From contig NC_014012.1 of assembly GCF_000091325.1 (NCBI RefSeq), forward strand, positions 3,989,685 to 4,053,684: a stretch of DNA of 64,000 bases. The letters run 5' to 3'. The first letter of the stretch is position 1; every line of letters begins with the position of its first letter. Source of the DNA: Shewanella violacea DSS12. GTDB taxonomy: Bacteria; Pseudomonadota; Gammaproteobacteria; Enterobacterales; Shewanellaceae. The position numbers were made by a program, and so were the translations under genes. Positions 4,849 to 21,855 of the stretch are shown one piece after another. The notes below the pieces were generated by a model. It was given only the letters and a program-made list of their open reading frames with translations, did no database searches and was not told the DNA's origin.

Positions 4849-6075
4849 CTAGTCTTGCTTACATAGCTTGGGCAGGCTGTTTTTGTTACCCATGGCCTGC
4901 TGTATAAACAGTGTTTTCACAGGAGAAAGGTTATCGACTAAATTTAAGCCAAAATCACGGATTGCTTTCTTAAGCGGATTGCTACCTTCGAATAAACGCT
5001 TGAAACCTTCCATTGCGGCTATCATCTCCAGGGCATCGGCCTTACGCCAACGCTCCAGAGCACGTAGGTTAGCGTAATCGCCGATATCTTTTCCGTCTAG
5101 TTTGAGCTCGGTGATGGTCTCGATAATCGCCGCCGCATCTAAGAAACCTAAGTTAACCCCCTGCCCCGCCAATGGGTGTATGGTGTGAGCCGCATCGCCA
5201 GCCAGTAACATACGGTGACGGGCAAAGTGACGAGCGTAACGCATACGCAAAGGAAAGGCCTGGGGCTCACATTCGAGCTGACACATGCCCATGCGACCGT
5301 CGAACTCAGCGGTGAGGGTGCGCTCAAACTCCTGTTTACTCGCGGCCAATAATTGCTGCGCCTTTGCCGGTGGCACCGACCAGACGATGGAACATAGATT
5401 ATTTTCATATAGCGGCAGGAAAGCCAGTGGGCCATCTTTGAGAAACACCTGACGAGCGGTAGCTTGATGAGGCAGCTCAGTGCGGATACTAGCAACCACA
5501 GCATGGTGACCATAATCCCAGAAGGTCATGGGGATCTTACACTGCTCACGCACCCAAGAATTAGCGCCATCGGCACCGATAACTAAAGCGGCACTGATAT
5601 TATCGCCATTGTCTAAGGTCAGCCAGGCCTCACGTTCACCGAAGGCTATCCGGTCTAACTTGTGATTTTGCAGATAGGTTATCTCATCGAACTCGGCCGC
5701 CCGCTTAGACAGGGCAAAACGTATGTTATCGTTTTCGATTATGCTGCCGAGATACTCTTCACTAAGAGAGTGAGCGTCGAAACCTATCTTGCCCAGACTG
5801 TCCTTGTCCCAGACTTCCATCTTCTGATAAGGGCTAACGCGCTCATCATCCAGATAACTCCAGGCACCTAAGTTTTGCAGTAAGCGTTGACTCGCCTTAT
5901 TGATAGCGCTGACCCTGAGTCTGGCTTCGCCGGAGACAGCTTGTGCCTCACCCGCATCGATAACCACTACTCGCAGTTCATCCATCGCCAGCCCGATAGC
6001 GGTAGCTAATCCCACCATACCGCCGCCAATAATCGCTACATCATAGGTTTGCATTGCACTTGAGTTTGTGTGCAT
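4849..6075 (-). CDS. ubiI: FAD-dependent 2-octaprenylphenol hydroxylase (UbiI/VisC type)
   Basis: Aromatic-ring flavin mono-oxygenase of ubiquinone biosynthesis, expected to hydroxylate C5 of the octaprenylphenol ring. The 408 residues start with an ADP-binding motif (VAIIGGGMVGLATAIGLA); the second FAD motif is MLLAGDAAHTIHPLAGQG near residue 295, followed by NLGFLDAAA. Both are diagnostic of the UbiH/UbiI/UbiF/Coq6 family. The GGAAG site ahead of ATG 6075 supports this start. The position next to ubiH and the gcv genes matches the enterobacterial order ygfB-(pepP)-ubiH-ubiI-gcvTHP, which is why I prefer UbiI over UbiF. Confidence 0.9.
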   Translation of the reverse strand: MHTNSSAMQTYDVAIIGGGMVGLATAIGLAMDELRVVVIDAGEAQAVSGEARLRVSAINKASQRLLQNLGAWSYLDDERVSPYQKMEVWDKDSLGKIGFDAHSLSEEYLGSIIENDNIRFALSKRAAEFDEITYLQNHKLDRIAFGEREAWLTLDNGDNISAALVIGADGANSWVREQCKIPMTFWDYGHHAVVASIRTELPHQATARQVFLKDGPLAFLPLYENNLCSIVWSVPPAKAQQLLAASKQEFERTLTAEFDGRMGMCQLECEPQAFPLRMRYARHFARHRMLLAGDAAHTIHPLAGQGVNLGFLDAAAIIETITELKLDGKDIGDYANLRALERWRKADALEMIAAMEGFKRLFEGSNPLKKAIRDFGLNLVDNLSPVKTLFIQQAMGNKNSLPKLCKQD

Positions 6076-8318: not shown

Positions 8319-8640
8319 TTAGTTGTAAGTAAATGAGGAATCGAGGAATCGAGAAGGTTCGAGACTAAGCCGAGAAAACGAGAACAAGCTCAGCTCTTCT
8401 CTCGCAGCCAACTTGTTGGCCTTCTCAAAGTGAGCTTGCGAACGTTCTCGAAGCGAAGCGACCTCGTAACTCACAGGAAGCGAGGAAAAACGAGGAAACG
8501 AGGAAACGAGGAAACGAGGAAACGAGGAAACGAGGAAACGAGGAAACGAGGAAACGAGGAAACGAGGAAACGAGGAAGCGAGGAAACGAGGAAGCGAGAA
8601 CAAGTTTGTTTAGATATAGCCAAATCAGATGGTTCTAGTA
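8319..8640. repeat. Interspersed element: inverted-repeat body plus CGAG-N4 octanucleotide array
   Basis: The body (about 8379-8452) begins CGAGAACAAGCTCA and ends TGAGCTTGCGAACGTTCTCG, an imperfect inverted repeat. It recurs at 58001-58066. It is followed by 13 head-to-tail copies of an 8-bp unit (cgaggaaa, some cgaggaag) at 8491-8594. Loose CGAG-N4 units also precede the body (8342-8378). Frames running through this region on either strand are repeat artefacts. The rest of the ygfB-zapA gap (8641-8803) shows only a probable zapA promoter region. Confidence 0.85.
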
Positions 8641-15180: not shown

Positions 15181-15304
15181 AAGGCTGCGAGCAATGAGGC
15201 TTAGGAAAAGGCTAAGAAATATAAGAAAGCAGAAAGGTAAATAAGGCTTCGAGCAGTGAGGCTTAGGAAAAGACTAAGAAATATAAGAAAGCAGAAAGGT
15301 AAAT
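15181..15304. repeat. 62-bp direct tandem duplication
   Basis: Two head-to-tail copies (15181-15242 and 15243-15304), beginning aaggct and ending ggtaaat, differing at about four positions. Purine-rich, no coding frame of note. Confidence 0.88.
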
Positions 15305-15363
15305 AATAGCGCTGGAAGGCGGTTCTTGCTTAAAGCGAACAGATTTTCAAGAATTTAAGCTGG

Positions 15364-15438: not shown

Positions 15439-15494
15439 CGAGAATCCGAGATTACGAGAGTTCGAGAGTTCGAGAGTTCGAGAGTTCGAGAATC
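15439..15494. repeat. CGAG-N4 octanucleotide array
   Basis: Seven head-to-tail 8-bp units with CGAG every eight bases (cgagaatc, cgagatta, then cgagagtt repeats), running directly into the REP-like unit at 15503. The same phase occurs at 8491 and 57977. Confidence 0.8.
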
Positions 15495-17667: not shown

Positions 17668-18282
17668 CTAAATCGTCACAAGTACCCGCACGGCTAATAG
17701 GATCAGTACCACTCCCGATAGTTTATCGATCAATGCAGCCTTCTCTCTGAGTTTGGGCAAGACTGACTTATGGGACAGCAACATAGCGATAATCGTGAAC
17801 CAGAGACCGTCAATAATCAGCGGCGTAAATACGATCAATGACTTGCCCCATAAGCTATCAGCAGCCATGACGAATTGACTGAATAACGCCAGAAAGAAGA
17901 GTAGAATCTTAGGGTTAAATAGCGAGATTGCCAAGCCATCTCTGGCGGCCGTAAATGAATCCGTCGATTTCCCCGCCACGAGTTTCTCAGACATACCGCC
18001 CTTAGAACGCAGGGCTTGTACCCCCATCCATGCAAGATATAGGGCACCTGTGATGGCAATACCATTAAACACCATGGGCGCTTTCTTAAGGACCACGGCC
18101 AGACCTAACAGGGTCACTAGGGCATAAATACCTATGCCGATAGAGTGAGCCCAGGCGCAGATAATGCCCTTGCCTCTGCCGCCTCCTAAGGTGTGCCTCA
18201 CCACCATAGCCAGACTAGGGCCCGGCGACATTGCGCCTAAACAACAGATGGCCACTAAACTCAGCCAAGCAGTAAAACTCAT
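17668..18282 (-). CDS. LysE/RhtB family amino-acid exporter
   Basis: Inner-membrane exporter of the LysE superfamily; substrates in the family include homoserine, threonine, leucine and lysine, and the one here cannot be named. The 204 residues have about six hydrophobic segments and the family hallmark near the N-terminus, GAMSPGPSLAMVVRHTLGGG. The NPKILLFFLALFSQF motif in the middle is also characteristic. Single gene on the minus strand. Confidence 0.9.
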   Translation of the reverse strand: MSFTAWLSLVAICCLGAMSPGPSLAMVVRHTLGGGRGKGIICAWAHSIGIGIYALVTLLGLAVVLKKAPMVFNGIAITGALYLAWMGVQALRSKGGMSEKLVAGKSTDSFTAARDGLAISLFNPKILLFFLALFSQFVMAADSLWGKSLIVFTPLIIDGLWFTIIAMLLSHKSVLPKLREKAALIDKLSGVVLILLAVRVLVTI

Positions 18283-18514
18283 ACTATTTCCTTTTTATGC
18301 TTATTAGTGGATTAATCTCTACTCACTCAGGCCAATGTCACTCAGTCCTAACGTTAGTATCTCTGAATGAATCAGTCGAACAGCTTACAAAGTTTATCTG
18401 ATACGAGCAAAACTCAATTGCAACAAATCGTTATATTCTATTTAGTCCCATTACTGGTCAATATGAGTTCCCCCTCAAGATTTCCGACTATGAGTTAACG
18501 GGAAAAACAGACAT

Positions 18515-18543
18515 AAAAAATGGCTGCATAAGCAGCCATTTTT
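18515..18543. terminator. Terminator downstream of the TonB receptor repeat array
   Basis: AAAAAATGGCTGC - ATAA - GCAGCCATTTTT. On the minus strand it lies about 720 bases after the receptor stop codon, beyond all 78-bp repeats, so the repeats are probably in the transcript. Confidence 0.88.
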
Positions 18544-18545
18544 AT

Positions 18546-19299
18546 ATCATGATTTCCCAATGAATCTAACTAACCATTGGGAAATATAGTTAACTCGTCC
18601 CTTGTAATGTCATGATTTACTAATGAATCTAACTAACCATTAGAAGATATTGTTAACTCGTCCGTAGTAGAAGCCAGCGTTGTAATGTCATGATTTACTA
18701 ATAAATCCAACTCACCATTAGAAGATATTGTTAACTCGTCCGTAGTAGAAGCCAGCGTTGTAATGTCATGATTTACTAATGAACCCAACTCACCATTAGA
18801 AGATATTGTTAACTCGTCCGTAGTAGAAGCCAGCGTTGTAATGTCATGATTTACTAATGAACCCAACTCACCATTAGAAGATATAGTTAACTAGTCCGTA
18901 GTAGAAGCCAGCGTTGTAATGTCATGATTTACTAATGAACCCAACTCACCATTAGAAGATATAGTTAACTCGTCTGTAGTAGAAGCCAGCGTTGTAATGT
19001 CATGATTTACTAATCAATCCAACTCACCATTGGGAAATATAGTTAACTCGTCCGTAGTAGAAGCCACCCTTGTAATTTCATGATTTACTAATCAATCCAA
19101 CTCACCATTGGGAAATATAGTTAACTCGTCCGTAGTAGAAGCCACCCTTGTAATTTCATGATTTACTAATGAATCCAACTCACCATTAGAAGATATTGTT
19201 AACTCGTCTGTAGTAGAAGCCAGCGTTGTAATGTCATGATTTACTAATGAACCCAACTCACCATTAGAAGATATAGTTAACTCGTCCGTAGTAGAAGCC
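18546..19299 (-). repeat. Array of 78-bp tandem repeats in the 3' untranslated region of a TonB receptor gene
   Basis: GTAGTAGAAGCC recurs exactly every 78 bases at 18664, 18742, 18820, 18898, 18976, 19054, 19132, 19210 and 19288; two further shortened units lie at the distal end. Each unit, read on the minus strand, holds the last 11 codons of the receptor (GFYYGRVNYIF), its stop, and 42 bases of what followed it. Sub-types differ (TTAGAAGATAT versus TTGGGAAATAT). The most distal unit has both arms of a potential stem changed together to a perfect 11-bp inverted repeat (ATTTCCCAATG / CATTGGGAAAT). Confidence 0.95.
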
Positions 19300-21855
19300 A
19301 CCGTTATAATCAAATGGTCCACTTTCGTAGTAAACGCCACCGAGAGCACCTAAAGTGCCATCTTTTAGCTTTTGCGCTTCTTGATCAAAGATATTGTTCG
19401 CACCAACCGAAAACGTTAAACTTTCGAGAACGGCATAGCTAATTTCTAGGTCAAAGGTCACTGCAGCATCGGCAACTTCAGAGCCCCACTCAGTAGTATC
19501 ATCAGCGTGTGTCGCATAATATTCGCCGAAATAATTAGCTCTAAGTGTCGTGCTTAATTTTGCCCAAGATTGGCCCCAAGTTAATGTCCCTCTATGAGCC
19601 GGAATACCATCTTCTAAACGACGAACCTTTCCTTCATCTGTAGTGTCAGGATCATACTTATCGACACTGGTATCATTCCAACCATAAGCCAAACTCAGGT
19701 TTGCATCGCCACTCAAAAACTCCGTCTCATAAGAACCAACAATATCGATACCTTGTGTCGTCGTGTCAAAGTCATTGGTATAAAAAGTTACCGCCGAAAT
19801 AAGTTCAGGATGCTCAATACCCGCAGCCCTTAGCTCATCATAATCTTCCTCTTCTACCGCTATTTGGCTCGACTGCGCGAGACGGCCCGTTACTTCAATA
19901 TTGTAGTAATCAAGCGTCAGAAAGAAGTTTTCATATTCAAATACAGTACCAAATGCATAACTGACAGACTCTTCTGGATTTAACACTTTACCACCATAGA
20001 ATGCTGCAAGCGGGTTAGTTGGCGGAGCGATAAAGGTTTGGATCAAGTCACCGTTCACAATCGACGTCTGCGTGTTAACAACATTTTCTTGCCCTACTGT
20101 CGGAGCTCTAAAGCCCGTACTGTGAGATGCACGAAACGATAAGTAGTCAGTGGCAGAATATTGAGTCGATATTTTATAATTAAGGGTGTCACCGAAGGTA
20201 GAGAAGTCTTCATAGCGCAACGCAACACCCAACAACCAATCATCGGTCAGGTAGCCTTCTACATCAGCATAAATACCTATGTTATTGCGTGAGTTTTTAC
20301 TTGCAGATTCTGGTCCAAAACCTTTAAAGCCATGAGAACCGATATTAAAGCCTTGATCAGCATAAGGTCCGGCAATCCAAGAGGATTCTTCGCCTTGTGT
20401 GATCTCAAAAGACTCTTCTCGCCACTCAAAACCTGTCGCAAAGCTCAGATCTTCAAGGGCACCTATGGTAATCGAGCGTGAAAAGTCGATATTGACTGTT
20501 GTTTCTGACTGCTCATAAGCACCGGTTTCAAAATCTGTAGGAGTATCTAAACCAAGAGATGGATTCAATGAGTTACGTAAACTAAATGTCGACTTATTAT
20601 TACCCATTCCTGCACTGGCATCATAGCTCCACTCTCCGATATCACCTTTGATACCGGCGAAGAATGAACTGTCTTTCACGGTACCAGCAAATTGCGGGGT
20701 ATAACCGCCTGGTCTAATTTGGTTCATAGAAAAACAGTTCGGATCTGCGAGCATATCCAGATAGGGCTGACTCGTCAGCACATTGCCATCTAGGATATTA
20801 CCGTTTGCGTCGGTAACTTTAGGAATAGGAACCGCGTTACAGCTAGATTGATCACCGTTTAAGGCCCCAACAAGCAAGGTTTCGCCGTCATCAACTGAAT
20901 ATACGTTGCCACGGTTATGAGGATTACGATAATAGAATCCCCCCACAACATCCCTTGATGACAAGTTACCAAACGCATAGAGCTGAGCACTATCATTAAT
21001 ATCGAAGCCTGTATTTACAAATACGGTGTAATCATCTTTTATTTCAGGATTACCCCAGATTTGGGCTGGATCATTAACATCCATATTTCCCTGTGCAATC
21101 AAGTTTGCCGCATCCTGGCGCTGAACACTTCTACTGGTAGCATCGGCAGTTTTATATTGCGCACTGATATTAACAAAACCACTGTCGGTAAGAGGTAAAC
21201 CGATATTTCCATCAATGGTGGTCGTCGCGCCATCACCTTTGTAATACTCCCCCTGACTGACAGTGATTGAGCCACCTTCTGCATCATCTTTTAATACAAA
21301 GTTCATCACACCGGCAATCGCATCAGAGCCGTATTGGGCTGATGCACCATCCCTTAATACTTCAACTTGCTTTAAAGCGACACCTGGAATGACCGAAATA
21401 TCGGGGCCCTGAGCACCATCGTTAATGCCACCACCTTGGAAAGCAATGACTGAAGCACGGTGACGACGCTTACCGTTAACCAATACTAAGGTGCTATCTG
21501 AAGGTAATCCCCTGAGGTTAACTGGGCGAACCAGAGTAGCCGCATCACTAATAGGCTGAGCTCTGGAGTTAAAAGATGGCACCGAAGCCACCAACATATC
21601 AATCATGTCAGTTGAGCCATTTTTTCTTAAATCTTCACTATCGATAATGTCGATTGGCACCGGAGACTCACCTACTGAGCGTGGCGCTGAGCGTGAGCCT
21701 ATGACTGCAATTCTTTCTACGCTTTCTGATATATTTTGATCTTCTGCAGCTAAAGCTTGTGTGCTGGCAAAGGACCCGGCTAGCGCTATCGAGATGGCTA
21801 AGCTCAGTGAACTAATCCCGAATTTATTATTATTACTCATGGTCATTATTCTCAT
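19264..21855 (-). CDS. TonB-dependent outer-membrane receptor
   Basis: Outer-membrane active transporter, 863 residues, substrate unknown. The order is a signal peptide ending ALA near residue 36, a plug domain (about 45-185) with VLVNGKRRHR and VEVLRDGASAQYGSDAIAGV, and a 22-strand barrel ending YYGRVNYIF with the terminal aromatic residue needed for assembly. The plug type (GGGINDGAQGPDISVIPG) is the one common in large TonB receptors of Alteromonadales. The start is uncertain: ATG 21855, or the Met codons four to six residues later. The stop lies inside the first 78-bp repeat. Upstream (21856-22307) I see an AT-rich promoter region and no clear Fur box. Confidence 0.93.
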   Translation of the reverse strand: MRIMTMSNNNKFGISSLSLAISIALAGSFASTQALAAEDQNISESVERIAVIGSRSAPRSVGESPVPIDIIDSEDLRKNGSTDMIDMLVASVPSFNSRAQPISDAATLVRPVNLRGLPSDSTLVLVNGKRRHRASVIAFQGGGINDGAQGPDISVIPGVALKQVEVLRDGASAQYGSDAIAGVMNFVLKDDAEGGSITVSQGEYYKGDGATTTIDGNIGLPLTDSGFVNISAQYKTADATSRSVQRQDAANLIAQGNMDVNDPAQIWGNPEIKDDYTVFVNTGFDINDSAQLYAFGNLSSRDVVGGFYYRNPHNRGNVYSVDDGETLLVGALNGDQSSCNAVPIPKVTDANGNILDGNVLTSQPYLDMLADPNCFSMNQIRPGGYTPQFAGTVKDSSFFAGIKGDIGEWSYDASAGMGNNKSTFSLRNSLNPSLGLDTPTDFETGAYEQSETTVNIDFSRSITIGALEDLSFATGFEWREESFEITQGEESSWIAGPYADQGFNIGSHGFKGFGPESASKNSRNNIGIYADVEGYLTDDWLLGVALRYEDFSTFGDTLNYKISTQYSATDYLSFRASHSTGFRAPTVGQENVVNTQTSIVNGDLIQTFIAPPTNPLAAFYGGKVLNPEESVSYAFGTVFEYENFFLTLDYYNIEVTGRLAQSSQIAVEEEDYDELRAAGIEHPELISAVTFYTNDFDTTTQGIDIVGSYETEFLSGDANLSLAYGWNDTSVDKYDPDTTDEGKVRRLEDGIPAHRGTLTWGQSWAKLSTTLRANYFGEYYATHADDTTEWGSEVADAAVTFDLEISYAVLESLTFSVGANNIFDQEAQKLKDGTLGALGGVYYESGPFDYNGGFYYGRVNYIF

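Follow-up and report, generated by a model that had tools for sequence, protein, structure and literature searches.

A recently formed tandem array of gene-end copies behind a TonB-dependent receptor gene of Shewanella violacea DSS12

A TonB-dependent receptor gene of Shewanella violacea DSS12 is followed by a tandem array of copies of its own 3' end, which is a genuine and recent duplication present only in this species among those searched. We consider it quite probable that the array originated by a recent local tandem duplication (initiated at short homology and expanded by slippage or unequal exchange) and that it was tolerated, the coding sequence having been spared; its most likely nature is that of a neutral minisatellite which lengthens the untranslated tail. 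The array offers a clean example of a gene end that stutters into a long untranslated tail with the protein left unharmed, and the excess of gene 3'-end copies that appears linked to this lineage is, in our opinion, a more interesting result than the array itself.

Anatomy of the receptor array

The analysed window (64,000 nucleotides of a genome that consists of one contig of 4,962,103 bases) carries on its minus strand an open reading frame of 863 amino acids (19264-21855, stop codon 19264-19266) with the Pfam domains Plug and TonB_dep_Rec_b-barrel, the TonB-dependent receptor. Between its stop codon and the receptor terminator, TRF delimited an array at 18602-19310 (period 78, 9.1 copies, 94% matches, score 1208), which, as in bacterial minisatellites, is a head-to-tail succession of units longer than 9 bases (78 bp x 9.1). 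Nine occurrences of the sense anchor TGGCTTCTACTAC follow one another at intervals of exactly 78 bases, the first of them (19300) being the gene's own end, and in each full unit the last 11 codons are succeeded by the stop position and by 41 flank bases. Read in sense direction (all features on the minus strand), the gene's own end (U0, 19223-19300: last 11 codons, TAA and first 41 flank bases) is succeeded by eight full copies (U1, 19145-19222; U2, 19067-19144; U3, 18989-19066; U4, 18911-18988; U5, 18833-18910; U6, 18755-18832; U7, 18677-18754; U8, 18599-18676), by one shortened unit of 60 bases (U9, 18539-18598) and then by an intrinsic terminator-like hairpin (18543-18516, 12 pairs and a subsequent T run), a hairpin matching it being found after the single-copy genes of two relatives (G073 and G028). 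No unit leaves the receptor frame open: the original TAA reads CAA in U2, U3 and U9, in which other in-frame stops remain. The TRF result and the anchor spacing confirm the tandem copies of the receptor 3' end that a preliminary description had reported behind the gene, and its claim of a receptor-frame stop in every unit holds as well; its nine full copies plus several shortened ones become eight beyond the gene end (in the 78-base phase that it had given) plus a single shortened unit, and its unit was right as to the last 11 codons and the stop position, the flank being 41 bases, not 42, and the TAA being altered in the three units named above.

From the positions of the stop codon and the terminator, we infer that transcription presumably runs through the array to the old terminator and adds some 700 untranslated bases at the 3' end, which supports the long untranslated 3' region postulated earlier. 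No promoters were found near the array (18250-19400, both strands), shuffled sequences giving 4.3. Elsewhere in the window, TRF reported two repeats with 8-base units (AGGAAACG, 15.2 copies at 8475-8598; CGAGAGTT, 6.6 copies at 15439-15491) and a 62-bp unit in 2.0 copies between two genes (15181-15306).

A young array, found in one species among those searched

The nearest relatives by receptor protein (G073, 96% amino-acid identity; G028, 91%) both have the gene end in single copy: in G073 about 47 bases separate the stop codon from the matching terminator, and G028 is organised alike. Between S. violacea and G073, the receptor genes share 2453 of 2592 bases; of the codon changes, 100 are synonymous and 31 non-synonymous. 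An 851-base query produced some match in 62 of 129 genomes of the genus (S. violacea included); among the matches listed (at most three candidates scored per genome), each one outside S. violacea consists of one gene end with flank, or of the terminator, and none spans more than one gene end or terminator. This search for the unit in other Shewanella had been advised in the preliminary description, which took an identical array in all relatives as the sign of an old and inert duplication; the opposite was found, the relatives examined being devoid of the array. Between species (the collections hold one genome for each), the copy number is one in G073 and G028 versus ten here. Within the S. violacea genome the unit was found at this one position, the sole additional match being that of the terminator to itself on the opposite strand, which rejects a dispersed repeat of the MIRU, REP or ERIC type. 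Since the two nearest relatives found are single copy and the genome holds no other copy, we take the array to be young; its youth does not make it functional. Among the literature titles listed, no description was found of this array or of gene-end arrays in Shewanella.

Folding and a possible role of the untranslated tail

As the array lies between stop and terminator (and is thus likely transcribed), it might constitute a selected 3' untranslated region that alters receptor mRNA stability or yields a regulatory RNA. The sole positive evidence for a possible role in mRNA stability is one stable stem in U9 (18553-18584, minus strand), in which TTTCCCAATG and CATTGGGAAA form a perfect 10-bp pairing (z -2.9 for the unit against shuffles). 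The folding of single units (a check recommended in the preliminary description) placed the other 9 of the 10 units above the mean of their own shuffles (z +0.3 to +1.9, i.e. less stable), and the whole region of 829 bases also folds worse (z +1.2, 20 shuffles). U9 excepted, and with the stem broken in U2 and U3, the units do not show the better-than-shuffled folding and the retained pairs of a structured RNA element. A known RNA family was likewise rejected, as Rfam returned only two matches (E 0.13 and 0.14), far below the gathering scores and on the other strand. Furthermore, the 13 variable positions (of 78) are distributed evenly over the former coding part (6/37) and the flank (7/41), and no such array exists in the relatives examined. 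We regard a selected untranslated region as improbable.

A narrower alternative restricts the function to the terminal hairpin (which might, for instance, impede 3' exonucleases), the arms of which would have co-evolved under selection. The stem is perfect and both of its arms are derived relative to G073, so the earlier statement that both arms changed together in the last unit is correct; the selection that it was thought to hint at is contradicted by U2 and U3, which have the changed 5' arm (TTTCCCAATG) and an unchanged 3' arm and therefore a broken, unpaired stem, and by the poor folding of 9 of the 10 units and of the region as a whole (U9 excepted). The terminator hairpin itself, moreover, is situated only about 10 bases further on. 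According to PMC8794818, which deals with RNA genes, one template switch between imperfect inverted repeat arms can match both at once; an event of this kind, there described for RNA genes and here invoked for one unit, would make both arms of U9 complementary in a single step and is, in our view, the simpler explanation of the paired change. A functional terminal hairpin is, in our judgement, very unlikely.

Exchange among units and decay of the copies

In the four-gamete test, 45 pairs of informative sites were compared and all four combinations occurred in 24, some of which could stem from recurrent mutation. U3 resembles the front of U2 joined to a U0-type back and U1 (a mosaic of sub-types) has the back of U2; as far as can be read from the sequence, mosaic units of this kind show exchange, and the sub-types and the exchange among units noted previously are real. 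U8 and U9, which adjoin the terminator and have TTAGTTAGATT in common, look like the least homogenised units, because they carry an A (TTAGATT) that is present in G073 and gone from the other units.

The receptor ends were counted without a motif in 97 receptor loci (96 with a closed reading frame, 78 distinct ends): of the 78, 72 retain the near-terminal Tyr (2 have Phe instead) and 76 retain the final Phe, the exceptions being one close homologue in which Phe replaces Tyr (L088), two apparently broken frames (L091 and L094) and three distant homologues (L096-L098). Within the array, the ends of 7 of the 9 copies are damaged (Tyr to Asn in U1, U6, U7 and U8; Phe to Ser in U2, U3 and U9), while the last 11 codons of U0 are identical to those of G073, on which grounds the gene's end, but not the copies, appears to be maintained by selection. 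The same data bear on the proposal, made in the preliminary description, that the array serves as a recombination reservoir for the swapping of receptor C-termini: units do exchange, and U0 belongs to the sequence group of U4, U5 and U6 (1 difference each), but a reservoir in which most copies have lost a conserved terminal residue, next to a gene end that is unchanged from G073, is hardly credible. An artefact of assembly or sequencing, to which repeats are prone, deserves equally little credence, as the full units differ pairwise at 1-9 positions (an assembly duplicate would be identical) and the length of 709 bases is one that single reads of older sequencing methods can contain. Least probable of all is a translated extension reached via frameshift (a 26-residue repeat in the frame that stays open over parts of the array), since the one sense frame that is open across several units meets 5 stops within the array (U2, U3, U5, U8 and U9) and the relatives are without the array.

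Gene-end arrays at other loci

The S. violacea genome has 35 PF00593 matches, 30 of which gave loci. In the TRF scan of 158 loci, arrays with a period of at least 30 that span a receptor gene end (by coordinates) were encountered in S. violacea only, at the gene described above and at a second TonB receptor (L138, Pfam Plug and barrel domains). The latter ends in a 161-bp x 3.1 array (L138 1061-1546 by TRF; contig G000:C1 near 3027335) built from the gene's final codons, its stop and the adjoining flank bases, and both borders carry GAAGTATATGC; in G073, G014, G074 and G095 the array has one match each, covering one copy. Receptor homologues at L059, L076, L089 and L046/L107 carry repeats behind the stop that do not include the coding end. 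In the distant homologue L089, the region just behind the stop is duplicated together with a terminator-like hairpin (5478-5811, 156 bp x 2.1). A receptor-specific phenomenon was rejected, given that 3'-end copies also lie behind unrelated genes of the genome.

One of these genes, of the T2SSF family, has a match in 124 of the 129 genomes. We examined 32 of its loci (30 returned, plus those of G010 and G041, genomes with extra matches) with a probe from the gene's own end (at least 20/28 matching, within 800 bases downstream) and found 3'-end copies in 9: seven in S. violacea (L206 1653-2227, the same as L285), four each in G073 and G074, three in G015, two each in G014, G092 and G041, and one each in G028 and G010 (remaining loci L286, L287, L288, L289, L291, L296, L315 and L316). 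The other 23 loci are without copies by this probe, G095 holding a shorter piece by eye. A copy number that differs among species at one gene end is as expected if arrays grow and shrink, and the T2SSF case, which is older, illustrates various stages in the growth of such arrays.

Excess of gene 3'-end copies in a sample of the genome

The distribution of tandem arrays was surveyed in 40 segments of 20 kb from the S. violacea genome (800 kb, window excluded) and in 20 such segments from each of four other Shewanella (single-contig genomes holding the receptor, picked by the analyst). TRF arrays with a period of at least 30 and at least 1.8 copies numbered 29 in the 800 kb of S. violacea versus 31 in the 1600 kb of the four others (conditional test, p 0.019), densities that are rough, as 23 of the S. 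violacea arrays fell in the first 400 kb and 6 in the second. A stop codon lies within nine of the 29 arrays, a start codon within one. Whether the stop-spanning arrays represent an excess over chance depends on the null, three of which disagree: random placement expects 8.5 stop-spanning arrays when array length is used, 6.1 with two periods and 3.2 with one period (p 0.001), and for start-spanning arrays the same nulls expect about 8.5, 6 and 3. A further 10 of the 29 are inside open reading frames (14.0 to 18.9 expected) and 10 are intergenic (3.2 to 4.8 expected). The four comparison genomes display the opposite pattern (4 of 31 stop-spanning, 8 of 31 start-spanning), hence a 3' bias is not general. 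Two arrays from the S. violacea segments may be recorded here: a 546-bp unit repeated 7.2 times with 99% matches inside an open reading frame (L209 4191-8096), and a 77-bp x 10 array that reaches to the end of a 390-aa open reading frame and is cut by the edge of the stretch (L221 1-778).

Copies of gene ends were counted directly by comparing the last 30 bases of each open reading frame (simple six-frame calls no shorter than 100 aa that had 1 kb of sequence to either side within the stretch) with the 1 kb downstream (at least 24/30 matching), the first 30 bases and the 1 kb upstream serving as the mirror test. In S. violacea, 12 of 491 open reading frames have 3'-end copies and 1 of 491 has a 5'-end copy (12 vs 1, p 0.003). 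The corresponding numbers are 5 of 257 and 5 in G073 (three of the 3' cases coming from one cluster of similar frames, L194), 3 of 282 and 1 in G028, and 0 of 276 and 1 in G090 as well as in G046, i.e. 0 of 552 for 3'-end copies in these two more distant Shewanella. S. violacea exceeds the latter two (Fisher p 0.0001) and also all four taken together (8/1091, p 0.007). Swapped-gene controls (three shuffles each) yielded 3, 0 and 0 in S. violacea, 0, 0 and 0 in G073, 0, 1 and 1 in G028, 0, 1 and 0 in G090, and 0, 0 and 0 in G046. The 12 cases (at loci L160, L165, L167, L171, L172, L173, L176, L177, L210 and L217) are to be read with the caveat that two are frames of about 108 aa which may not be genes and that L172 (326 aa) is at the same time the single 5' case; not all of the copies are strictly tandem, several being placed behind a spacer. 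The 10 proteins (of 12) that were scanned are unrelated: an SRP54-type GTPase (FtsY-like), an SDF symporter, NA37, a YdbH-like protein, DcuA/B, an E1-E2 ATPase, a phosphodiesterase, DUF2955, citrate synthase and one without match. A process of this Shewanella lineage that preferentially copies gene 3' ends downstream (tied to the end of transcription, to terminator hairpins or to replication under the conditions in which the lineage lives), of which the receptor array would be a well-grown case, is a tentative and rather doubtful idea. If copying of 3' ends is indeed more frequent in one lineage and greatly exceeds that of 5' ends, the copies could be counted as a record of tandem duplication and of what is tolerated by selection, and such an excess makes a comparison over cold- and pressure-adapted species testable.

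Proposed origin

Under recent local duplication, the explanation that we favour, a 78-bp piece that comprises the last 11 codons, the stop and all of the flank before the terminator would have been duplicated in the lineage of this species. Slippage during replication, or recombination at short homology, between similar bases in the coding end (ATTATAACGGTGGCT) and directly ahead of the terminator was probably the trigger, as suggested by a short stretch common to both borders: the bases before the terminator are ATATTAAAATGGCT in G073, and the duplicated piece begins near ATTATAACGGTGGCT (two sequences compared by eye). Starting from two copies, unequal exchange or more slippage may have led to the ten now present (counting the end of the gene itself) and to the mixing of units, after which only the first copy, i.e. 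the real gene end, would be held by selection and the others would drift, probably without function. The gene product would remain unchanged, and the array would be transcribed as an untranslated 3' stretch of some 700 bases. Against this explanation stands the high number of units, ten, which among the 29 arrays of the 800-kb sample is equalled by L221 only (77 bp x 10.0); the stable fold of U9 and the dependence of the stop-spanning excess on the null also count against it.

Comparison with known systems

Mycobacterial interspersed repetitive units (MIRUs) are dispersed over many loci, and the receptor unit differs from them in being found at one place only. The unit at senX3-regX3 (PMC4213456) has nearly the same length (77 bp) and is likewise arranged in tandem at a gene boundary, with differences between strains. 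The tandem repeats of Borgs (PMC9879509) are recently formed and independently arising arrays, in which they resemble the receptor array; the Borg units are perfect, A-rich and carried by archaeal extrachromosomal elements, whereas the receptor units are diverged and lie on a bacterial chromosome. As to mechanism, PMC2884548 proposes short-homology illegitimate recombination or replication slippage for small variable segments between repeats of less than 30 bp, which is the same kind of process as the trigger that we infer here.

In common with bacterial minisatellites (VNTR), the receptor array has tandem units of tens of bases, substitutions between units and a restriction to one lineage, and it differs from them in that it spans a stop codon and its unit is the gene's own end. 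In this last respect the rtT repeats of the tyrT operon of enteric bacteria offer a parallel: a tRNA gene is followed by tandem copies, each of which begins with the gene's own 3' end, and a named RNA product is associated with them. The receptor units, too, open with the 3' end of the gene before them (11 codons and the stop position per full unit), but that gene encodes a protein, and the array has no Rfam match to the rtT family up to E 1. A table entry in PMC2658671 gives a 175-bp VNTR at rtT RNA whose copy number differs between two strains.
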